In this document: piece by piece, positions 822 to 62,748 of the stretch
Position numbering within the stretch: position 1 is the first letter of the stretch
How the letters are laid out: every line of letters starts with the position of its first letter
Notes under the pieces: generated by a model
What the model was told of the DNA's origin: nothing
The model's input: the letters and a program-made list of their open reading frames with translations, nothing else
Databases searched by the model: none
Assembly: GCA_020349885.1 (NCBI GenBank)
Contig: CP070701.1
Location: 972,040-1,036,039, forward strand
DNA: 64,000 bases
Direction: 5' to 3'
DNA from: Acidobacteriota bacterium
Lineage (GTDB): Bacteria; Acidobacteriota; G020349885
Program-made: the position numbers and the translations under genes

Positions 822-1295
822 ATGGATCTCGTCATGACGGGAGTGGTAGCCGGAGTGTTGGGGACGTTGGTGATGGATTCCTTGAACCATCTCTTCTCCC
901 GAACTGGGATGCTCCTGAAGATCGACGTGAGGATGATCGGGAGAATGTCCGCGGGGTGGGCACGTGGGCGCTTCCGCTATCGCCATCCAGGCGAAATGGA
1001 ACAGGTCGCAAATGAGTTGCTCTATGGCTATATCACGCATTACTCCATCGGTGTGGGCCTCGCGGTCACCTACATGCTCGGCTGGGATCTCTTGGTTGGA
1101 GGGCCTGCATCACCGGCATGGGCCCTTGTCTATGGCGTCGCGACGACGGTAGCCTCTCATTTCTTCGTTCTCCCTTCCATGGGGCTGGGTGTGTTTGGCA
1201 GGCGGTCTCCCGAAGGCATTAGGAGCCCTCTCTCCAGCCTGGCCAACCACCTATTCTATGGAGTGGGTATTGCGGTCGCGGTCGCACTTGCGTGA
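822..1295 (+). CDS. DUF2938 family membrane protein
   Basis: A 157-residue polytopic membrane protein with about four hydrophobic segments (near residues 1-20, 72-92, 100-125 and 137-157). The order of motifs, a GVLGTLVMD start, a GRMSAGWARGRF segment, an H-Y-x-IG helix, then FFVLPSMGLGVFGRR and a final SLANHLFYGVG helix, matches the DUF2938 family, whose function is unknown. The start is supported by a GGAGGAG site five bases upstream. It stands alone, followed by a short iterated repeat and then priA. Confidence 0.75.
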   Translation: MDLVMTGVVAGVLGTLVMDSLNHLFSRTGMLLKIDVRMIGRMSAGWARGRFRYRHPGEMEQVANELLYGYITHYSIGVGLAVTYMLGWDLLVGGPASPAWALVYGVATTVASHFFVLPSMGLGVFGRRSPEGIRSPLSSLANHLFYGVGIAVAVALA

Positions 1296-1391
1296 GTACC
1301 GGGGGAGACAGAATGCGCAGGCGCTTGCGCAGCGTGCGTGAAACACTCTCGTCTTCGCGCTGGGCTTCGGCGTAGCAAGTCTGCCATCCCC

Positions 1392-1419
1392 TATCTGTCA
1401 TCTGTCATTAGTCATTCGG
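1392..1419. repeat. Short iterated repeat (TCTGTCAT-like units)
   Basis: Tandem degenerate units of the type ATCTGTC / ATCTGTC / ATTAGTC / ATTCGG lie in the gap before priA. They resemble the iterated GTCATCGGTCATTGG units found elsewhere in the window, but no inverted partner arm is obvious here. Confidence 0.4.
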
Positions 1420-1457
1420 TCCGAGATTGACACCCCGCGGCGGGGGCACCATCATGC

Positions 1458-3998
1458 ATGGCGCGTATGCGATTCGTTCAGGTCGCCGTCCCCGTCCCCG
1501 TGCGGAAGCTCTTCACCTACCGCGTGCCCGACGCGTGGGAGGAAAAAGCGCTCCTCGGCTGCCGGTGCCGCGTGCCGTTCGGGCGCTCGGGCGAGAAGAT
1601 GGGCTACGTCGTCGCCGAGGCGGAAAAACTTCCCAAAAGCCTCGACCGCGAAAAGATAAAACCCCTCGGCGCCGTCCTGGACGAGCGCCCCACGTTCTCG
1701 CCCGCGATGCTTGATTTCACGCGCTGGGCGGCGGAGCATTACGTTGCCTCGTGGGGCGAGATGCTGCGCGCGGCGCATCCCGTGCGCCTCTCCGCAAAGG
1801 CGCGCAGGCGCTACTCGCTCACGCCCAAGGGCCGGGACGCCGCCACGCAGGGTAAGGGTAAAGGAATTTCTGAAGCCATGTGCCGCGTGCTGGACGCGCT
1901 CGGTTCCGCCGCAGCGGACGAGGCGCGCGAGCTCACATTAAGAGGACTCTCACGCGCCCTGGGAGAGGAAATATCCGCCTCGCGCATGGAGACGCTCGTG
2001 CGCCACGGGTGGGTGCGGGAAGAATCCACGTTCGTGGAGCCGCGTAAAGGTAAATACCGGCTCGCCGTGGAATGCCTCCGCGAGGCCGAGGCCGGGGAGG
2101 CGGGGCCCGCGGAGACGCTCATTCTTCGGGAGCTCAAGAAACGCGGCGAGGCCGTACCGGTGGCGGAGCTTTCCCCTTTCGCCTCCGACCCGCACGCCGT
2201 CGTGCGGCGCCTCCGGGCCAAGGGCCTGGTGAGGGTTTTTCAGCAAAGAATTCTGCGTGACCCGTTCTGGGATAAACCCCCAGAACAGAATCGGGAGCTG
2301 ACGCTGACCGGGCACCAGGAGAAAGTTTTCCGCGCCGCGCTCCCCGCCCTCCGGGAGAGCCGGTTCCAGCCCGTCCTCCTGCACGGCGTGACGGGAAGCG
2401 GCAAGACCGAGGTGTACATCCGCCTCATCCGCGAGGCGCTCGGCATGGGGCGACGCGCGCTCTACCTCGTCCCGGAGATCGGCCTTACGCCCCTCACCGC
2501 GGCTCGCCTTCGCGCCCACTTCGCGGCGAACGTGGCCATACTGCACAGCGGCCTCGACGAGGGCGAGCGCTACGACGAGTGGGAGCGGGTGCGGCGCGGC
2601 GAGGTGGACCTCGTGGTCGGAACCCGTTCCGCCGTGTTCGCCCCGATAGAGTCCCTGGGCCTCGTCGTCGTGGACGAGGAGCACGACCCGTCCTACAAGC
2701 AGGAAGAGTCTCCCTACTACAACGGGCGCGACCTCGCCGTTGTGCGCGCGCAGCGCGACAACGCCGTGGTGTTCCTCGGTTCGGCGACGCCCTCGACGGA
2801 GACGTACTTCAACGCGTGCGGAGATTCTTCCTCTTCCTTCCCGAGCACCCGAAAGCCGCGCAAGGCGGGGTATCTTTCCCTCGCCCTTCCCGAGCGCATC
2901 GAGAAGCGGCCGCTTCCCGGGATGCGCCTCGTGGACATGACGAAAGAGTTCCAGGAGACGGGCGAGCGGAAAATTCTTTCGCGCGCGCTGGAGGAGGCCC
3001 TCATGCAATGCGTCGCGCGCGGGGAGCAGGCGATGCTTCTTCTGAACCGCCGCGGCTACGCGCCGTTCGTGCTCTGCCGAGAGTGCGGCTACACCCCGGA
3101 CTGCGAGCACTGCAGCGTCATGCTGACGCTCCACACGCGAGGCGGGAGACGGGACGCAAACGACGGAAAAATACCCGCCTCGGCATATCTCATGTGCCAC
3201 TACTGCGGCCATCGGGAAAAAATTCCGCGCCGCTGCCCCGAGTGTGAGGGCGAGTTCCTGCAGATGGTAGGCCACGGAACGGAGCAGGTGGAAACGTACG
3301 TGCGGTCTCTCCTTGCGGGCGGGGCGCGGACGCTGCGCCTTGACCGCGACACCGCGTCGCTCAAGGACGCGCACCACCGTATACTGAGCGCCTTCGGGCG
3401 CGGCGAGGCGCAGGTGCTCGTGGGAACGCAGATGATCGCCAAGGGCCACGATTTTCCGAACGTTACGCTCGTGGGCGTCGTCTCGGCCGACACGGGCCTC
3501 GCCTTCCCGGACTTCCGCGCCGCGGAGCGGACGTTCCAGCTCCTGACCCAAGTGGCCGGGCGTGCGGGGCGCGCCGAGCGCCCGGGCGAGGTTTTTATTC
3601 AAACCGTCAACCCCCGCCACTACGCCGTCGAGATGGCCGTGGGCGGCCGCGTCGCGGAGTTTTACCGCAAGGAACTGTGGTTTAGGCGCGTGATGAAGTA
3701 CCCGCCGTATACGGCCATGGCCATCGTGCTCGCGCGCGACCGGAACGAGGAGAAAGCCGTCAAGCTCATCAAGAAGCTGGCGCGCGCGCTGCGCGAGGCG
3801 GGCGACCCGCGGGTTGCGGTGCTCGGGCCGGCGCCGGCGCCCCTTGCGAAAATCAAGGACGTCCACCGCTACCACGTGGTCTTGAAGTCGTCCAGCCGCG
3901 GCCGCCTGCGCAGCGTTCTCGACAAGGCGCTGGGCTCACTCAAGCGACTAAAGCGCGAGAGCGTTCGCATTAATGTTGATCCGGTCAATGTTCTATGA
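1458..3998 (+). CDS. priA: Primosomal protein N' (replication restart helicase PriA)
   Basis: An 846-residue superfamily 2 helicase that rebuilds replication forks. The N-terminal 3'-DNA-binding domain (KLFTYRVPDAW and following) is intact. The Walker A motif GVTGSGKT is at residues 310-317 and the DEEH box at about 406-409. Eight zinc-binding cysteines sit at about 540, 543, 549, 552, 580, 583, 593 and 596. The two cysteine groups are separated by a longer basic loop than usual. GTQMIAKGHDF and the Q-V-A-GRAGRA helicase motif VI follow. Length is slightly above the roughly 730-820 residues usual for PriA, because of the mid-domain linker. Two other ATGs are nearby (1454 out of frame, 1467 in frame). 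A terminator hairpin follows at 4103-4135. Confidence 0.97.
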   Translation: MARMRFVQVAVPVPVRKLFTYRVPDAWEEKALLGCRCRVPFGRSGEKMGYVVAEAEKLPKSLDREKIKPLGAVLDERPTFSPAMLDFTRWAAEHYVASWGEMLRAAHPVRLSAKARRRYSLTPKGRDAATQGKGKGISEAMCRVLDALGSAAADEARELTLRGLSRALGEEISASRMETLVRHGWVREESTFVEPRKGKYRLAVECLREAEAGEAGPAETLILRELKKRGEAVPVAELSPFASDPHAVVRRLRAKGLVRVFQQRILRDPFWDKPPEQNRELTLTGHQEKVFRAALPALRESRFQPVLLHGVTGSGKTEVYIRLIREALGMGRRALYLVPEIGLTPLTAARLRAHFAANVAILHSGLDEGERYDEWERVRRGEVDLVVGTRSAVFAPIESLGLVVVDEEHDPSYKQEESPYYNGRDLAVVRAQRDNAVVFLGSATPSTETYFNACGDSSSSFPSTRKPRKAGYLSLALPERIEKRPLPGMRLVDMTKEFQETGERKILSRALEEALMQCVARGEQAMLLLNRRGYAPFVLCRECGYTPDCEHCSVMLTLHTRGGRRDANDGKIPASAYLMCHYCGHREKIPRRCPECEGEFLQMVGHGTEQVETYVRSLLAGGARTLRLDRDTASLKDAHHRILSAFGRGEAQVLVGTQMIAKGHDFPNVTLVGVVSADTGLAFPDFRAAERTFQLLTQVAGRAGRAERPGEVFIQTVNPRHYAVEMAVGGRVAEFYRKELWFRRVMKYPPYTAMAIVLARDRNEEKAVKLIKKLARALREAGDPRVAVLGPAPAPLAKIKDVHRYHVVLKSSSRGRLRSVLDKALGSLKRLKRESVRINVDPVNVL

Positions 3999-7881: not shown

Positions 7882-8287
7882 GGGCCTCGGCGTGGACGTC
7901 GTGGACATGGAGCGCTTCGAGGCGTTGCTCCGGCGCCGGGGGACAGCCTTCCTGAAGCGCGTCTTCACCGAGCGGGAGATTCGCTACTGCCGCGCCCGCC
8001 GCCACAGCGCCCAGCACTTCGCCGCCCGTTGGGCCGCCAAGGAAGCCTTCTTCAAGGCGCTCGGCACGGGCCGGGGCAAGGGCGTAGCGTTCCGAGACGT
8101 CGAAATTCTTCGCAACACAAGCGGCGCCCCGGCACTTCGCCTCGGCGGCAAGGCCCGCGCCCTCGCCGAGCGGGCCCGCGTGCTGCAAACCCTGGTCTCC
8201 CTAAGCCACACCGACCGCGTGGCCGCCGCCGGCGTCGTTCTGACAGCGAGTGAGAAGAAGCCGGGGAAAAAGGTCAAGAAAAAATAA
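7871..8287 (+). CDS. acpS: Holo-[acyl-carrier-protein] synthase
   Basis: A 138-residue trimeric AcpS that transfers 4'-phosphopantetheine from CoA to acyl carrier protein. The N-terminal GLGVDVVDMERF with the metal-binding aspartate, the FTEREIRYC stretch and the ARWAAKEAFFKALGTG motif with the second metal-binding glutamate are all present, and SHTDRVAAA follows at the usual place. The gene overlaps its upstream neighbour by eleven bases. The tail is lysine-rich, and a palindromic element begins right at the TAA. Confidence 0.95.
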   Translation: MVLKGLGVDVVDMERFEALLRRRGTAFLKRVFTEREIRYCRARRHSAQHFAARWAAKEAFFKALGTGRGKGVAFRDVEILRNTSGAPALRLGGKARALAERARVLQTLVSLSHTDRVAAAGVVLTASEKKPGKKVKKK

Positions 8288-8347
8288 CCAATGACCGATA
8301 ACCGATTCAGGAATCGGTAATCGATAATCGGCAATCGGTCATTAAAT
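8282..8347. repeat. Solo copy of an AATGACCGAT palindromic element
   Basis: The arms are 8290-8307 (AATGACCGATAACCGATT) and 8326-8343, matching as inverted repeats at 16 of 18 positions; extra iterated AATCGGTAATCG units lie on the right side of a four-base centre. The ends read AAATAACC and GGTCATTAAAT, the same ends as the four-helix-bundle element at 19424-19894. The left end overlaps the acpS stop codon. Folded as RNA, it gives a long hairpin between the convergent genes acpS and pit. Confidence 0.75.
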
Positions 8348-19423: not shown

Positions 19424-19894
19424 ATTTAATGACCGATTATCGATGACCGATGACCGATTTAAAAACCTGCGAAGAGGGCAATTCGTTTTTCTTCAAGGTC
19501 TGGATGAATGCCGTAATTTGACGTGCCACGCTCTCCAGCTGTGAGGCAATTTCCTTACGTTGAGTTTCCGTGATGTAGTCAAGCTCTTTGGCAATTTCGA
19601 GTTGGCTTCGGACTTCGCCGGCGGAGGCCCTAGCGATGTGAAGATAGCGTATAAATTCCTTCCGTGTGCCGCATTCAAATCCCTCGGCGATGTTGCTGGA
19701 AATAGAAAGGGAGGCGCGCCGCACTTGATCGCGGATCGCAAAGTCTTTGGAAAAGGCCCCTCTAGACGTCAGCCGGTAAATGTCCACCGCTACGGCCTTT
19801 GCAAGTTGCCATATCGGCATGTCCTCAAAGCGGTTATAAAAGGCCACTTTTACGCTTCTTTCATCGGTAATCGGTCATTGGTCATCGGTTATTT
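19424..19894 (-). mobile_element. Palindrome-bounded element carrying a four-helix-bundle gene
   Basis: Inverted arms at 19428-19446 (AATGACCGATTATCGATGA) and 19861-19879 match at 18 of 19 positions and enclose one gene. Read on the minus strand the element starts AAATAACC, overlapping the nuoB stop codon, and ends GGTCATTAAAT five bases before the nuoC ATG. The solo palindrome at 8282-8347 has the same two ends. In RNA the arms would pair and loop out the gene, the same architecture as the intervening sequences of some 23S rRNAs that encode this protein family. Confidence 0.65.
19437..19847 (-). CDS. Four-helix-bundle protein (23S rRNA IVS / S23 family)
   Basis: A 136-residue protein of the family first found encoded inside intervening sequences of 23S rRNA genes. 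The pattern FEDMPIWQLAKAVAVDIYRLT, then DQVRRASLSISSNIAEGFE, then KEFIRYLHIARASAGEVRSQL and a final helix is diagnostic. It starts with GTG. The last seven codons and the TAA are encoded by the inverted-repeat arm itself. It lies between nuoB and nuoC. The molecular function is not known; related proteins serve as Avd in diversity-generating retroelements, but no reverse transcriptase is present here. Confidence 0.92.
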   Translation of the reverse strand: MAFYNRFEDMPIWQLAKAVAVDIYRLTSRGAFSKDFAIRDQVRRASLSISSNIAEGFECGTRKEFIRYLHIARASAGEVRSQLEIAKELDYITETQRKEIASQLESVARQITAFIQTLKKNELPSSQVFKSVIGHR

Positions 19895-20368
19895 TCTTAA
19901 AACCTTCATCTTCTTGATCTTCTCCTGCAACTTAATCACGCCGTAGAGAAGCGCCTCGGGCCGGGGTGGGCAGCCCGCGATGTAGACGTCCACGGGGACT
20001 ATCTTGTCGATGCCCTGCAGGACGCTGTATGCGGGGTAGGGGCCGCCCGTGTTGGAGCACGCGCCCATCGAGATGACCCACTTCGGGGAGGGCATCTGGT
20101 CGTAGAGGCGCTTGATGGCGGGCGCCATCTTGTAGGTCACGGTGCCCGCGACGATCATGAGGTCGCTCTGGCGGGGGGTGGCGCGGAAGATGCCCGCGCC
20201 GAAGCGGTCCATGTCGAAGCGCGAGGCCCCGGTGGCCATCATCTCGATGGCGCAACACGCCAGGCCGAGCGTCATCGGCCAGAGCGCCGATTTGCGCGAC
20301 CAGTTGAAAAGAGAATCCACCGTCGTCGTGATGACCGTTTCGTTGAATTTTCTTTCTAAGATGCTCAC
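19889..20368 (-). CDS. nuoB: NADH-quinone oxidoreductase subunit B
   Basis: A 159-residue subunit holding the terminal [4Fe-4S] cluster N2 next to quinone. The adjacent cysteines ([23 protein letters not shown]) and the remaining ligands in [13 protein letters not shown] and [16 protein letters not shown] are all present. Length is normal. The stop codon coincides with the left end of the palindromic element downstream, and a short iterated repeat fills the gap from nuoA. Confidence 0.97.
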
Positions 20369-20369
20369 G

Positions 20370-20396
20370 GGGGTAGTGGGTGGTGATTAGTGGGTC
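20370..20396. repeat. Short iterated repeat between nuoA and nuoB
   Basis: GGTAGTGGG, TGGTGATTAG and TGGGTC units follow each other in the 26 bases between the nuoA stop and the nuoB start. The style resembles the other iterated elements in the window. Confidence 0.4.
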
Positions 20397-20778
20397 AGAG
20401 TCTGCCGAACTCCTCGTCCGAGAAAATCCACTCGAGCGCGCCCTTGCGCCAGGCGTAGGCGTAACCTAGAAGCAGGATGGCGATAAAGAGCGCCATCTCG
20501 ACGAGGCCGAAGAGGGCGAGGGCGTCGAACTTGACGGCCCAGGGAAAGAGAAAAATCGTCTCCACGTCGAAGATGAGAAACAGGACGGCGATGACGTAGT
20601 AGTGAATGGAAACCCTGCCGTGCGCGTCGCCCTTCGCCTGGATGCCGCACTCGTAGGCTTGCAGCTTGACGCGGCCGGGGCTCGAGGCGCGGAAAAAGCG
20701 CGCGATGAAAAGCGTCACGATGCCGAAGCCCACGGCCACCATCAGAAACAGCGCGACGGGGATGTAGCTGCCGGTCAT
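20395..20778 (-). CDS. nuoA: NADH-quinone oxidoreductase subunit A
   Basis: A 127-residue membrane subunit with three helices, first gene of the nuo operon. YECGIQAKGDAHGRVSIHYYVIAVLFLIFDVETIFLFPWA is the conserved loop and second helix (quoted in part: YECGIQ with its exposed cysteine, FDVETIFLFPWA). A strong promoter lies about 20 bases upstream and diverges from the chemotaxis promoter. Confidence 0.95.
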   Translation of the reverse strand: MTGSYIPVALFLMVAVGFGIVTLFIARFFRASSPGRVKLQAYECGIQAKGDAHGRVSIHYYVIAVLFLIFDVETIFLFPWAVKFDALALFGLVEMALFIAILLLGYAYAWRKGALEWIFSDEEFGRL

Positions 20779-27507: not shown

Positions 27508-30462
27508 TTACGGGCACGGTCCCGTGGCGGGCCAGCCGGGCCGGATGCTGCGCCCCGCTCCATCGCTGTCCGCGCCGCAGCTCGACTCCCCGCAGCCACT
27601 CGCCGCCGATACCACCACCCAGCGGTCACCGGGGTCCATCGCGTGGTTAATCCGCACCGTCGCGCCCAAATCCTCTACAGCCCCTCCCGACAGGCACGAG
27701 CGCGCGGGCGTGTCCCACGCGCCGATGGCGCCTTCGTAGACGACGTAGCCCGTTTCGTCCGTCACGTTCTCGACGATGACTTTATTCTCCGTCGGCGCGG
27801 GAATGACCAACGGCTCCGGCATGCCGGAAGAGGACGGCTCGTCGGGCAGCGCGCCGCATCCGCACACCGCCGGGCTGCAATCGAACATCATGCCCTTTAC
27901 GTCTACCTCATCTACCGCCCAGTGCATCTCCCAATTGGCGTTGTAATAATGCCAGTTCACCTCCAGGTCCGGCACGCCCGCCGCTTCCGCGGTGATGTCC
28001 AGAACCACCGTGCCCGACGCGGGCGCTTTGGTATACTTCGCTCTCGTAACCCAGGCGCCCCCCGTGTTCGCACTCCGCACCTTCACCTCGGCCACCTCGA
28101 AGTCCCAATCGACGAAATCGTGCTCGAACTGAAGCTCCACCGTCTTCGACGAGCTGCAGTCTATGGGCGGCGTGATGAGCTGCTCGTCCATGTCCATGGG
28201 GCCGGCGCAGTCGCTATTCACAATCATGTGCGTACCGGGAAGCGCGCCGAGGGAGCAGGGGTCCAGATCCGTCCACATGCACACCTCGTCACCGCAGAAC
28301 ATATTGGTTCCGCCGTTTATGACCGTCCACGTTCCCGGAAGGCCCGCTTCGAAGTTCTCTGAAAGGAGGGAAAGGGGCGTGCCGCTTCCCACTCGCACCT
28401 GAAACACTATGGGGTTTGAAAAAGGGCTCCCGCCACCGTCTTCGTAGGAAAGGGCCAGTGTGAAATCAATGGGCGTTCCGCAGGATACGCCCGAGCTCAC
28501 GACAAATTGAAACGGCGTGAGCGACGTTCCAGTGAGTCCCACGGAAATATCGGGAAACGAGGCGCTGTTTGCGGGTATCGCTATCCCCGGGGTTGCGGTG
28601 GAAAGCGCTCCACTTACCTTAGATGCGTTATTGACGCCGACATTCTGCACCGTGACGTCAAGAGTGATGGTTTCCCCGGGGTCCACGACGCTGTCTCCAT
28701 TTCCGCAGTCGGTGGACGAAAGCGAGTCGTATTCCAGGTACGGGGTGCTGGTGCACTGCATGTTAATCACTGCGGCGGAATCCGCGCCCCCCACGGAAGT
28801 ATCCGTCACCGTCACGGTGGGGTCCTCCACCGGCGTTACGTCGGTGATGGCGATGGCAGCCGCGGTGGGGGTTACATCGGCCGTCGTTTCAGCGACGAAC
28901 GTGCAGGAGGGGTCGGTATTCCCGTTTGAGTCCAGCTTCAGAATCCAACCGTCCTGCAGTCCCGCGCCGAACGAATAGACCCAGCCCGCCGACGCGAATC
29001 CACCGTCCGTGGCCTCACGCGGAGACCAGATTATATCCTCCGCTGCACCGCCGTGGGCCCTTTCCCATTGGATGCCGCCCGAGGCGTCCAGCTTCAAGGT
29101 CCAGAAATCCCTGCCCCCCGCGCCAAAGGACTGCGTGTCTCCTCCCGCGATAAAACCGCCGTCCGAAGTCTGTCGAATCCTCCAGCCGGCATCGTCGCTC
29201 AAATCGCCGTACCTATTCTCCCATTGGATTATATTGCCTGAATCGTTCAACTTTAAAATCCATAAATCGCTACCCCCTGCGCCGAAGGACTTCGTTTCCC
29301 CCGTGATGACAAAACCGTCGTCCGAGGTTTGCTGGGCGAAGTAGCCCCAGTCTTCGGAAAGGCCGCCGTAGGCTCTTTGCCACTCGATGTCTCCCGTGTC
29401 GTACAATTTGAGAATCCAGAAGTCATTATCGCCCTCCCCGAAGGACCACGTGTGCCCCCCCACGACATACCCGTCGTCCGAGGTTTGCTGGACGGACAGA
29501 GCATAGTCGGAATCCGTGTTGCCGTAGGTGTATTGCCATTCGATGCTTCCCGAGTCGTACAGCTTCAGGACCCAGGCGTCCGCGCCGCCCGCGCCGAAGG
29601 AATGGGTAACCCCGGCCATGACGAAGCCGTCGTCCGAGGTCTGTTGCACAAGCCATAAATAATCGTCCGAAGCGCCGCCATACGCCTTCTGCCACTCCGC
29701 GGCGCCAGAGGCGTCCAGCTTCAGAACCCAGAACTCGCTACCCCCCGCGCCAAAGGACTGCGTCTCTCCTCCCACGACAAAACCGCCGTCCGAGGTCTGC
29801 TGGACGGAATATCCAGCATCAAAGTCGGCGCCGCCGTAGGTTTTTTGCCATTCGATGTTTCCCGATGCGTCCAGTTTCAAAACCCAGCAATCGTCATCGC
29901 CTGTGCCGGAAGAGTTTGACCGCCCCGTCGCGATGAAACCGCCGTCCGAAGTTTGCTGCATGGAAAACACGGTGTCGTCTCTTGCCCCGCCGTAGGTGCG
30001 CATCCACGTAGCACATGGCGACGTATCCCCCGTAAGCGTCAAATCGTAATTGCGGTTGTCGCCGAAGGTCGCGTCGAACTGCCGCACCTTGATGTGATAC
30101 GTCCCGCCCGCCGGGGCCGTCCACATGATGGAGGCCGGTGCTCCCGGGGCGCCGCCGTAATTCGAATCAAGAAGCGACGCGCAGTCCGTGTCGTAAAGCT
30201 CTAAGGCAACGTCCGCAAGCGGGCCAATGGGAACTGCGTCAATCGTGTAAGAGCGCCCCGCGCAGGCGTTGAACTTCAGCCAGTCCTCGGCATCTTGACA
30301 GAAATTGTGAGATTGGGTGTCGCCGCCGTGGATGACCGTCTTCGAGGGAATGCACGCGTCGTCCTCCTCGTACGCGTCCGCCGTGCACTGTGCCGCAAGC
30401 GGGGGACCGAAAAAAGTCCACAGCGCTGCTGCCAGGAACACGAGGACACCCTTGCAATTCAT
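27508..30462 (-). CDS. Secreted protein with PPC domain and seven-bladed propeller
   Basis: A 984-residue exported protein with a signal peptide (about 1-23). Residues about 24-170 resemble a bacterial pre-peptidase C-terminal (PPC) domain. Then exactly seven copies of a unit of about 51 residues follow (about 170-545), each with QQTSDGGF, SFGAGG, DxWVLKLDASG and IEWQKxYGG. Seven blades predict a closed beta-propeller. Two further beta-sandwich-like domains follow: one with a VTVQNVGVNNAS repeat-type motif, then a cysteine-bearing one. No anchor is visible. Cysteine pairs suggest disulfides outside the cytoplasm. The role is unknown, perhaps adhesion or binding. The start has AAGGGA six bases upstream. 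Confidence 0.8.
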   Translation of the reverse strand: MNCKGVLVFLAAALWTFFGPPLAAQCTADAYEEDDACIPSKTVIHGGDTQSHNFCQDAEDWLKFNACAGRSYTIDAVPIGPLADVALELYDTDCASLLDSNYGGAPGAPASIMWTAPAGGTYHIKVRQFDATFGDNRNYDLTLTGDTSPCATWMRTYGGARDDTVFSMQQTSDGGFIATGRSNSSGTGDDDCWVLKLDASGNIEWQKTYGGADFDAGYSVQQTSDGGFVVGGETQSFGAGGSEFWVLKLDASGAAEWQKAYGGASDDYLWLVQQTSDDGFVMAGVTHSFGAGGADAWVLKLYDSGSIEWQYTYGNTDSDYALSVQQTSDDGYVVGGHTWSFGEGDNDFWILKLYDTGDIEWQRAYGGLSEDWGYFAQQTSDDGFVITGETKSFGAGGSDLWILKLNDSGNIIQWENRYGDLSDDAGWRIRQTSDGGFIAGGDTQSFGAGGRDFWTLKLDASGGIQWERAHGGAAEDIIWSPREATDGGFASAGWVYSFGAGLQDGWILKLDSNGNTDPSCTFVAETTADVTPTAAAIAITDVTPVEDPTVTVTDTSVGGADSAAVINMQCTSTPYLEYDSLSSTDCGNGDSVVDPGETITLDVTVQNVGVNNASKVSGALSTATPGIAIPANSASFPDISVGLTGTSLTPFQFVVSSGVSCGTPIDFTLALSYEDGGGSPFSNPIVFQVRVGSGTPLSLLSENFEAGLPGTWTVINGGTNMFCGDEVCMWTDLDPCSLGALPGTHMIVNSDCAGPMDMDEQLITPPIDCSSSKTVELQFEHDFVDWDFEVAEVKVRSANTGGAWVTRAKYTKAPASGTVVLDITAEAAGVPDLEVNWHYYNANWEMHWAVDEVDVKGMMFDCSPAVCGCGALPDEPSSSGMPEPLVIPAPTENKVIVENVTDETGYVVYEGAIGAWDTPARSCLSGGAVEDLGATVRINHAMDPGDRWVVVSAASGCGESSCGADSDGAGRSIRPGWPATGPCP

Positions 30463-32726: not shown

Positions 32727-33524
32727 TTACAGTCCCAGGTAATCTGCCGTCTCTTTCTGGATATAGGCGACAAACGCCTCTTTGTCGCCAACAAGCTTCC
32801 ATACCTTATCCAGACTCTTCCATTTTTCCGTTTTCCCGTTCTTCACTTCCACAAGAACGACGGAGCGGGTTGCCAGCTCGAAATCCCGGACGAAGTGCTC
32901 GTTCTCGGGCTCCTCCACATTAAGCGCCCGCCACGTGAGCCTTCCGGTTTCGAGCTCCTGAGGGAATCCGGCTTTCAGGGACTCGTCCGCGTACGCTTCG
33001 ATGGTCAGGCAGGTCTTGCAGCGCCTGGTCCCGTGGAAATAGTAGGCAATCACCGTGGATGGAGTTTCGCTCGCGTCCGGCTTTTGGTCACTGCCCGCCT
33101 CCTTCGCCGCACCCTCCAGGGGAACGGCGGACTGAGAGGCCGGAGCAGTGATTGCGCTCTGGGGAGCTTCCGGCTCTTGGCCGCTGTCCGCCTCCGTCGC
33201 CGCACCCTCCTGGGAAACGGCGGACTGAGAAACCGGAGCGGTGGCCGTGCGCCGGGGAGCTTCCGGCTCTTGCCCGCTGCCCGCCTCCGCCGCTGCATCC
33301 TCCTCAGGAACGGCGGGCTGAGTGGCTGGAGCGGTGGCCGTGCGCTGGGGGGCTTCTGTCTCTTGACCACTGCCCGCCTCCGTCGCTGCATCCTCCTGGG
33401 GGACGGCGGGCTGTGAGACCGGAGCGGTGACCGCGCGCTGGCGAATTTCTGTGACTGCAAGGTATGCCACGCTTGCCCCTACGAAAAGTAAAAGGACGGC
33501 AGTGGCGATGGTTTTCGGGTTCAT
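32727..33524 (-). CDS. ArsF-like protein with tandem-repeat linker
   Basis: A 265-residue protein. A single N-terminal membrane helix (about 7-26) is followed by four tandem 31-residue repeats rich in Ala, Pro, Glu and Gln (about 31-154), then a thioredoxin-like domain of about 110 residues (VIAYYFHGTRRCKTCLTIEAY with a CKTC pair, ending ADYLGL). The C-terminal domain matches the ArsF-type nitroreductase-subunit family usually found beside ArsG. The repeats probably act as a flexible spacer that places the CxxC domain away from the membrane. The ATG at 33524 has GGAG ten bases upstream. Confidence 0.75.
   Translation of the reverse strand: MNPKTIATAVLLLFVGASVAYLAVTEIRQRAVTAPVSQPAVPQEDAATEAGSGQETEAPQRTATAPATQPAVPEEDAAAEAGSGQEPEAPRRTATAPVSQSAVSQEGAATEADSGQEPEAPQSAITAPASQSAVPLEGAAKEAGSDQKPDASETPSTVIAYYFHGTRRCKTCLTIEAYADESLKAGFPQELETGRLTWRALNVEEPENEHFVRDFELATRSVVLVEVKNGKTEKWKSLDKVWKLVGDKEAFVAYIQKETADYLGL
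33063..33434. repeat. Four tandem 93-base coding repeats
   Basis: Four consecutive 31-codon units encode variants of TAPVSQxAVPxEGAAxEAGSGQEPEAP. Units are similar at the DNA level and in frame, so copy number can change without breaking the gene. On both strands this gives long open frames that are shadows. Confidence 0.85.
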
Positions 33525-60820: not shown

Positions 60821-60884
60821 TCGATGATCAATGGTCAATGGTCAAAAAAGACTATTGACAACCGACCGCCGACTATCGACCGTT
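60821..60884. repeat. Iterated-unit palindrome (GATCAATGGTCAATGGTC type)
   Basis: The left arm has GATCAAT-GGTCAAT-GGTC units; the right arm GACTATTGACAACCGACC-GCCGACTATCGACC. GTCAATGGTC (60834-60843) and GACTATTGAC (60850-60859) pair with one mismatch across an AAAAAA loop. It lies between convergent genes. Confidence 0.6.
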
Positions 60885-60888
60885 TCCG

Positions 60889-62046
60889 TCACTCTTCCGC
60901 CCCGGCCTGCTTGAGAAGCTCCACGATCTCGGTGTGGCCCTTCCCCTCCGCATACATCATGGCAGTCTGGTCTTCCATGTCCTTCACGTTCACATCCGCG
61001 TTCGCATCAATCAGAATCTTCACGACTTCGGTTTGGCCCCTCTTTGCCGCATGCATCAAGGCCGTCCGGTCTTCTATGTCCTTCACGTTCACGTCCGCGT
61101 TCACATCCATCAGCATCTTCGCAATCTCGGCGTTGCCCGAAATCGCCGCCCCCATCAGGGCGGTCGTGCCTATTCCCGTCATGGCGTTCACGTCCGAGCC
61201 CACGTCAATCAGGGCCTTCACCGTCTCGGCGTGGCCGTTCCGTGCCGCCAACATCAGGGAGGTCGTTCCGAAAATGCTCTTTGCGTACACATCGGCACCC
61301 GCCTCAATCAGGGTCTTCACCATCTCGGTGCGGCCATCCCCTGCCGCCCGTATGAGAGCGGTCACGCCGTCATTGGTTTTCGCGTTTACGTCCACGTCCG
61401 CATCAATCAGGACCTTCACCGCCTCCATACGATTGGAGCGCACCGCAACCATCAGGGCGGTCGTACCATCTTCTTTCATCGCGTTTACGTCCACGCCCGC
61501 GTCAATCAGAATCTTCACCGTCTCGGCGTGGCCCGTATCGGCCGCCCTCATAAAGACAGTCGCGCTGCTTCTGTCCCTCGCGTTTAAATCCGCGCCCGCT
61601 TCAATCAGGGCTTTCACCGTCTCCGTACGGCTCTCCCGCGCCGCCGTCATCAGAGCGGTCCGGCTGAATCCGTCCTTCGCGTTCACGTCCGCGCCCGCGT
61701 CAATCAAAGCCTTAATTGTCTCGGTATGGCCATAGAATGCCGCCCACATCAGGGCGGTCCGGCTGAATTCGTCCTTCGCGTTCACGCCCGCGCCCGCGTC
61801 AACCACGGCCTTCACCGCCTCGATGCTACCCTCCCTCGCCGCAATCATCAGGACGGTCAAACCGTTTTCGCCCCTCGCGTCCACGTCCGCGCCTTGCTTG
61901 AGCAATTGTTTCATTTCGGCGGTATCACCTGCCGCTGCCGCTTTGAGCAAGTCTGAATTGATATCCCCGCCGCGCCCGGCTGGGTAGACCGCCTGCACGA
62001 AAAGCAGCGGGAGCAAGAGCAGGATCGCCTTAAAGGTAGGCCTCAT
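60889..62046 (-). CDS. Exported ankyrin-repeat protein (about 11 repeats)
   Basis: A 385-residue protein: signal peptide (about 1-24, ILLLLPLLFVQAV core), then about eleven ankyrin repeats of 33 residues with the pattern DGTTALMxAAxxGHTETVKxLIDAGADVNAK. The whole mature protein is repeat, so it is a binding scaffold outside the cytoplasm; the partner is unknown. Its last residues (LKQAGAEE) equal those of the upstream paralogue, which points to a tandem duplication. The ribosome site lies in the end of the upstream gene. Confidence 0.88.
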   Translation of the reverse strand: MRPTFKAILLLLPLLFVQAVYPAGRGGDINSDLLKAAAAGDTAEMKQLLKQGADVDARGENGLTVLMIAAREGSIEAVKAVVDAGAGVNAKDEFSRTALMWAAFYGHTETIKALIDAGADVNAKDGFSRTALMTAARESRTETVKALIEAGADLNARDRSSATVFMRAADTGHAETVKILIDAGVDVNAMKEDGTTALMVAVRSNRMEAVKVLIDADVDVNAKTNDGVTALIRAAGDGRTEMVKTLIEAGADVYAKSIFGTTSLMLAARNGHAETVKALIDVGSDVNAMTGIGTTALMGAAISGNAEIAKMLMDVNADVNVKDIEDRTALMHAAKRGQTEVVKILIDANADVNVKDMEDQTAMMYAEGKGHTEIVELLKQAGAEE

Positions 62047-62052
62047 TTTTTA

Positions 62053-62748
62053 TCACTCCTCCGCCCCGGCCTGTTTGAGAATCTCCGCAACCTCGGTGTG
62101 GCCTTTCCTTGCCGCCAGCGTCAAGGCGGTATAGCCGCCTTCTTCCTGCGCGTTCACGTCCGCGCCCGCGCTAAGGAGGGCATTCACCGCCTCGGGACTG
62201 CCATTCTGCGCCGCCATCATCAGGGCGGTCGCGCCGCTATCGGTCTCCGCGTTCGCGTCCGCGCCGTTGCCGAGCAAAATCTCCACAGTCCCGCCGTGGC
62301 CTCCCTGCGCCGCGGCCATCAGGGCGGTCGCGCCGTCCTCCGTGAACTTCGCGTCCACGTCCGCGCCCGCGTCAATCAGGGCCGTTACCGCCTCGGTGTA
62401 GCCAAAGCGCGCCGCAACCATCAGGGCGGTGTCGCCGTAACTGTTCCTCGCGTCCACGTCCGCACCGGCGGCAACTAGGGCCTTCGCCGTCTCGGTGTGG
62501 CCGTAGCGCGCCGAAAGCATCAGAGCGGTCACGCCGCTTTTGTCCTTGGCGTTCACGTCCATGCCCGCCTCCAAGAATAAATTAACGGCTGTTGTGTCGT
62601 TGTTCACGACACGCTCAAAAAAGCCTTTCTGGCTGTAGGGGATATCCATCTGCTCCAGTTCCTTACGAGCATCCTCCGGGCCCCGTCCGCATGCGACCGA
62701 TACGAGGAAAAGGCTCATCCAAAACAGCAGTTTGTTTGGCTGGTTCAT
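62053..62748 (-). CDS. Ankyrin-repeat lipoprotein (about 6 repeats)
   Basis: A 231-residue protein with a lipoprotein-type signal: LFLVSVACGRG places a lipid-modified cysteine at about residue 20. Six ankyrin repeats follow (SGVTALMLSARYGHTETAKALVAAGADVDAR type). It is the first gene of a two-gene unit with the longer paralogue six bases downstream. Both being exported suggests a complex at the envelope, one member anchored. Confidence 0.88.
   Translation of the reverse strand: MNQPNKLLFWMSLFLVSVACGRGPEDARKELEQMDIPYSQKGFFERVVNNDTTAVNLFLEAGMDVNAKDKSGVTALMLSARYGHTETAKALVAAGADVDARNSYGDTALMVAARFGYTEAVTALIDAGADVDAKFTEDGATALMAAAQGGHGGTVEILLGNGADANAETDSGATALMMAAQNGSPEAVNALLSAGADVNAQEEGGYTALTLAARKGHTEVAEILKQAGAEE

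Follow-up and report, generated by a model that had tools for sequence, protein, structure and literature searches.

A probable gene-less member of an IVP-linked family of dispersed hairpins behind acpS in an Acidobacteriota genome

Introduction

The REP/BIME sequences and their RAYT (Y1) genes are dispersed intergenic palindromes that match the sequence around a single resident gene, and their gene-less copies outnumber that gene. The palindromes considered here are likewise intergenic and dispersed, with the sequence found around one resident gene. Unlike in REP/RAYT, however, their arms are short tandem repeats and the associated gene belongs to PF05635. They also resemble MITEs in being short, in having terminal inverted repeats and in that a gene-less copy has the same termini as an element with a gene, but no target duplication was seen and searches for Y1_Tnp and RVT_1 yielded no transposase. 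Heptanucleotide repeats are known as the cyanobacterial STRR, one of which is TTGGTCA. In Beggiatoaceae, TAACTGA heptanucleotide repeats have been described (PMC4679880). The repeats analyzed here resemble both in being intergenic tandem 7-nt units of unexplained origin, and some of the described units resemble GGTCATT. Those repeats were, however, described as direct and have no associated gene, whereas the present ones form inverted pairs linked to IVP genes.

The closest likeness in gene content is to the intervening sequences (IVS) of 23S rRNA, which have been proposed to be mobile or selfish (PMC4990558). In IVS with an S23p/IVP gene, such as those of Coxiella and Leptospira, a PF05635 gene lies between terminal inverted repeats able to form a stem, as is the case here. 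IVS lie inside the 23S rRNA gene, whereas the elements here lie in operon gaps (nuoB-nuoC for the gene-bearing element and acpS/phosphate permease for the solo palindrome). Unlike IVS, they have tandem arrays of 6-9-nt units as arms, gene-less solo copies and a unit that varies with the protein lineage. PF05635 is, furthermore, homologous to Avd, the accessory protein of diversity-generating retroelements (DGR) (PMC10053308). The likeness to DGR lies in this homologous fold of Avd and PF05635, while the genome considered here has no reverse transcriptase match. In the literature that was searched, with most subscription journals and bioRxiv lying outside the search, we found no report linking four-helix-bundle or IVP genes to heptamer repeats.

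Results

The palindrome and its gene-bearing counterpart

The window, i.e., the whole 64-kb stretch of DNA analyzed, corresponds to C1:972040-1036039 of a 2.4-Mb single-contig genome. The solo palindrome at 8282-8347 (66 bases, AAATAACCAATGACCGATAACCGATTCAGGAATCGGTAATCGATAATCGGCAATCGGTCATTAAAT) is gene-free and consists of two inverted arrays of degenerate 7-nt repeats with a short loop between them. The left arm (8284-8306, plus strand) reads ATAACCA, ATGACCG, ATAACCG and AT, while the inverted heptamers of the right arm (8313-8343) read AATGACC, GATTGCC, GATTATC, GATTACC and GAT on the minus strand. The palindrome lies in the gap between acpS (PF01648, 7871-8287, plus strand) and a convergent phosphate transporter/permease gene (PF01384, 8361-9365, minus strand), the stop of which is found about 14 nt past the palindrome.

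A gene-bearing element of the same family lies at 19424-19894 on the minus strand, in the nuoB-nuoC gap. Its gene (19437-19847, minus strand, 136 aa) encodes a 23S rRNA intervening-sequence protein (IVP; PF05635, E 2.3e-33), relatives of which have PDB structures (2gsc and 2rld). One arm lies on the 5' side of the gene (19863-19892, minus strand, ATAACCGATGACCAATGACCGATTACCGAT) and the other on its 3' side (19428-19459, plus strand, AATGACCGATTATCGATGACCGATGACCGATT), with the 3' end of the reading frame extending into the latter. Read on the minus strand, the element starts with AAATAACC and finishes with GGTCATTAAAT. In both the palindrome and the ends of the element, the repeat unit is a degenerate 7-base ATNACCR, arranged head-to-tail inside one arm and inverted between arms.

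An earlier note on this DNA had claimed that the two objects share their termini, and indeed their outermost 8 and 11 bases are identical when the element is taken on the minus strand. The common arm core that it also claimed is shared, although not in identical form (AATGACCGATAACCGATT on the left and AATGACCGATTGCCGATTATCGATTACCGATT on the right). Its statement that the left end overlaps a TAA stop at both places was likewise borne out: the stops of acpS (8285-8287) and nuoB (19889-20368, minus strand; stop at 19889-19891) each lie inside the first heptamer. Immediately upstream of the nuoB start, at 20369-20400, a heptamer-like run (GTAGTGGGTGGTGATTAGTGGGTCAGAG) is seen, which is perhaps a relic of another unit.

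As degenerate repeats are found in AT-rich gaps of this GC-rich genome, it should be considered that the likeness of the palindrome to the IVP element is a chance similarity of AT-rich spacers. The word ATGACCGAT, however, occurs six times in the window, where 0.29 occurrences are expected. None of 2000 shuffles equalled the palindromicity of the 66-mer, the windows of which ranked first of 10,656 across the 64 kb, and its RNA folding gave z = -3.7. Allowing at most one mismatch, ATGACCGATNACCGAT matched the genome 45 times, as compared with two matches for the reversed pattern. A chance palindrome is ruled out by this word excess, the shuffle tests and the 45 versus 2 matches, and chance similarity, its probability being negligible, is counted as refuted.

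Five period-7 arrays were detected in the window, three of which come from the palindrome and the IVP element. Two more period-7 arrays, at 1393-1416 (ATCTGTCATCTGTCATTAGTCATT) and 60821-60845 (TCGATGATCAATGGTCAATGGTCAA), contain related words, the second being followed by an imperfect inverted partner; these are possibly decayed members of the palindrome's family. The window also contains long in-phase repeats at 29047-29964, 33073-33444 and 60946-62563, with units of 156, 93 and 99 nt, respectively, which are probably repeat proteins.

Copies in the host genome

The 45 matches group into about 18 clusters, comprising the IVP element, about 11 solo palindromes (that at 8282-8347 included) and several single arrays. 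The earlier note's expectation of further copies thus held. Only one copy has the gene, as the genome contains a single PF05635 gene. The terminal signature given in that note, AAATAACC...GGTCATTAAAT, did not hold as a genome-wide rule, as the left end recurs at only 2-3 copies. The TAA coincidence, which arises because the heptamer variant ATAACC contains TAA, is also seen at 2-3 copies only. Neither this signature nor this heptamer is universal, as every IVP gene has its own unit (see below).

When the solos were compared with shuffled sequences, 10 had at most 1 in 300 shuffles as palindromic and one was weak. None of the 11 is more than about 36 nt away from the stop of a gene; most occupy operon gaps, and they often come within 5 nt of the stop or overlap it. 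It should be noted that the neighboring genes were picked by length and codon-position G+C, with several being confirmed by Pfam. Stop codons as a preferred target, as had been proposed, are thus found beside nearly all copies, although what is preferred seems to be the short gap as a whole, from a stop to the next start. A stop lies near the left border of 48 of 58 elements and of 11% of random points, a comparison that is too generous because the null used random points rather than spacer points and because stop triplets inside arrays inflate it. Such a random-point null does not separate stop-codon targeting from mere confinement to short gaps.

A loop with GATTCCTGA is found at three sites with unrelated flanks (in the palindrome at 8282-8347, on the opposite strand), and a common inner hairpin lies on either side of the DUF58 gene in a MoxR-DUF58 operon. 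Such sharing of loops at different flanks indicates the copying of whole hairpins. Four copies lie behind ankyrin-repeat genes that are paralogs of one another, and duplication of these genes may have spread them. As a separate observation, four loci of the same genome (L033, L042, L043 and L047) present a second dispersed repeat family, in which TAGGTTCGTTCCTAGG..., GGGGAGGATGCACCCCCTCCC and runs of 7-mers resembling CATACTCC are common to spacers, beside ATGACC arrays.

Inverted arrays around IVP genes across the phylum

Sampling of 297 genomes of the phylum revealed IVP (PF05635) genes in 146, with up to 15 copies in one genome among the matches listed. Loci were chosen by HMM score order, blind to repeats, and 73 had usable flanks, among them the locus described above and two from a protein scan of named genomes. 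A tandem array was present in the 5' flank of the IVP gene at 55 of these 73 loci and in the 3' flank also at 55, whereas of 219 control segments taken from these loci, 10 had one. Units of 7 nt predominate, with 6, 8 or 9 nt in some cases, and the two flanking arrays are inverted relative to each other. The unit differs from locus to locus. Where arrays were found at both ends (57 loci), the units of the two arms agreed within one mismatch at 45, while such agreement between loci was 2.4%. Twenty further IVP loci presented a like architecture. The scan of named genomes revealed only two relatives, of which that from Patescibacteria is bracketed by 7-nt repeats and the other is not. The members of the family are thus inverted arrays in which a short unit is repeated in tandem, and these may or may not enclose an IVP gene.

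The unit goes with the protein lineage. When pairs at orthologous sites were excluded, the unit was shared (with at most one mismatch) by 45% of protein pairs that are at least 60% identical, by 5-8% of those at 45-60% and by 0-3% of those below 45%. When units were permuted, sharing in the top identity class was 4.4% and none of 5000 permutations reached 45%, although relatedness inflates this significance because loci were treated as independent. For example, the unit AGTGGNC is common to four genomes of three families (L059, L073, L078 and L093), and the AGGAAGTCT 9-mer group is another case of the unit tracking the protein.

Gene-free arrays present the same correspondence. In G066, whose IVP carries AGGGATC, AGGGATCAGGGATCAG matched 108 times. 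Elsewhere it matched six and eight times in two genomes with AGGGATC or a near unit, twice each in two genomes and not at all in 45 of 50 genomes. With one mismatch allowed, CAGCTATCAGCTATCAGC matched 53 times in G189 (IVP unit AGCTATC) and 74 times in G120 (AGCTCTC), 12-19 times in three other genomes and 0-2 times in the remainder. Abundant gene-free arrays were thus found only in genomes with the matching unit at an IVP gene. Many arrays in G066 have no IVP gene. Some enclose other DNA, for example a gene which, from reading its sequence, we take to be D-aminoacyl-tRNA deacylase-like.

These findings bear on the main alternative, namely that the heptamer hairpins are independent dispersed repeats, produced by slippage and template switching or moved by another enzyme, inside which IVP genes hitchhike. 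The great excess of solos over IVP genes would fit such an origin, as would the bracketing of unrelated DNA, e.g., the deacylase-like gene, and the presence of hairpins without a clear short period at the rpsG-fusA junction described below. Hitchhiking, however, predicts that the gene should carry a locally common unit, yet the unit tracks the IVP lineage across families, a single genome with many IVP genes has a different unit on each, and 75% of IVP genes are bracketed. We therefore regard hitchhiking as unlikely.

Empty, solo and gene-bearing versions of one site

At the junction preceding a response-regulator gene, three genomes of one genus differ: G148 has an IVP element whose arms are AGGGACG, G180 has a gene-less array made up of related units, and G282 has no array. 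The gap between rpsG and fusA was compared in 30 genomes of the same genus. In three, 'TA' alone (a 2-nt gap) separates the stop from the start. In one (G172), an IVP element with GTAAATC arms fills the gap exactly, and in 26 there are inserts of 43-98 nt. The ungapped palindromicity of 17 of these 26 inserts is above the 95% shuffle level. Most inserts have a 7-9-nt period, with widely varying units, while some are hairpins without a clear short period. The flanks of G172 are 95% identical to those of G148, which instead contains an unrelated AGAGACGC-type insert. Comparison of empty and filled rpsG-fusA gaps revealed no evident target-site duplication, the borders being ones that cannot be placed exactly, and no events at the level of strains were seen. 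Other IVP elements fill gaps of what are presumably the pdhA-pdhB and asd-lysC types, the genes being named by reading protein ends.

The earlier view of an autonomous element and its gene-less derivative is thus upheld insofar as relatives have the same site in gene-bearing, gene-less or empty form. That the element is autonomous is unproven, because IVP is without known transposase chemistry.

An alternative that should be weighed here is that the hairpins act on RNA, as intercistronic processing or stabilizing stem-loops that IVP binds or regulates, with dispersal being incidental. Indeed, the hairpins sit in operon gaps, RNase III cuts the stems at the ends of rRNA intervening sequences (PMC4990558), and the inserts at rpsG-fusA keep their hairpin shape through changes of sequence. 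However, the insert is absent altogether in three genomes, close relatives differ in its sequence, unit length and size, and no loop or structure is conserved across the family. A role of this kind thus appears quite improbable.

Two further observations were made at these junctions. Five rpsG-fusA inserts (L147, L152, L159, L163 and L168) contain different heptamers and a common TTGCTAAG-like loop, and some share a right border (ACATTGCT/ACATTGTT before the ATG). Units may thus also be rewritten in place, with both arms changing in concert within one old hairpin. At L125 (G148:C42, ~1208-1799, minus strand), an antitoxin-like and PemK/MazF-like gene pair lies beside one remaining array, where G180 and G282 have the IVP element. 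The junction in G148 looks as if its cargo had been exchanged.

Discussion

The arrays described above are dispersed in short intercistronic gaps, their unit is specific to the lineage of the resident IVP, and the content of a given site turns over rapidly. We consider it probable that the palindrome at 8282-8347 is a gene-less, non-autonomous member of an IVP-linked family of small dispersed hairpins, the part ascribed to IVP in recognition and dispersal being inferred. This protein, a small helical bundle with homology to Avd, would recognize the hairpin's unit in the form of either DNA or RNA, and together with a putative host enzyme would promote the copying of its own element and of the solos into gaps just behind stops. 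Insertion behind stop codons would be tolerated, since no gene is broken.

A check for a cognate transposase covered Y1_Tnp and RVT_1: neither the Y1 (RAYT) transposase (PF01797) nor a reverse transcriptase (PF00078) gave a match in this genome, which is 95% complete. No REP/RAYT or DGR machinery was thus found within the genome itself, and another host protein would have to join the DNA.

Several points count against the IVP-linked reading and should be considered. IVP has no known DNA-joining chemistry, and in some genomes the arrays bracket DNA other than an IVP gene. The negative searches for Y1_Tnp and RVT_1, the lack of an evident target-site duplication and the rpsG-fusA hairpins that have no clear short period also weigh against it. 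The agreement between unit and protein could, moreover, reflect co-inheritance rather than binding.

A broader reading, which we offer tentatively as possible rather than probable, is that IVPs are the sequence-specific recognition factors of an undescribed class of hairpin mobile elements without a known transposase. Each lineage would be matched to a 6-9-nt unit and would move gene-less hairpins as well as itself into gaps between cistrons, with 23S rRNA intervening sequences being copies that happened to land in rRNA.

PF05635 is a widespread orphan family, and a matched unit together with solo hairpins gives it a testable role outside rRNA. The present analysis suggests that the IVP gene is part of mobile elements of a little-noticed kind that sit between genes. 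The link between IVP and unit could account for many of the heptamer repeats in bacterial spacers that have so far had no explanation, and it would make 23S rRNA intervening sequences part of a general element family. If IVP is indeed specific for its unit, this would constitute a natural and compact protein-repeat code for which dozens of pairs are already at hand.
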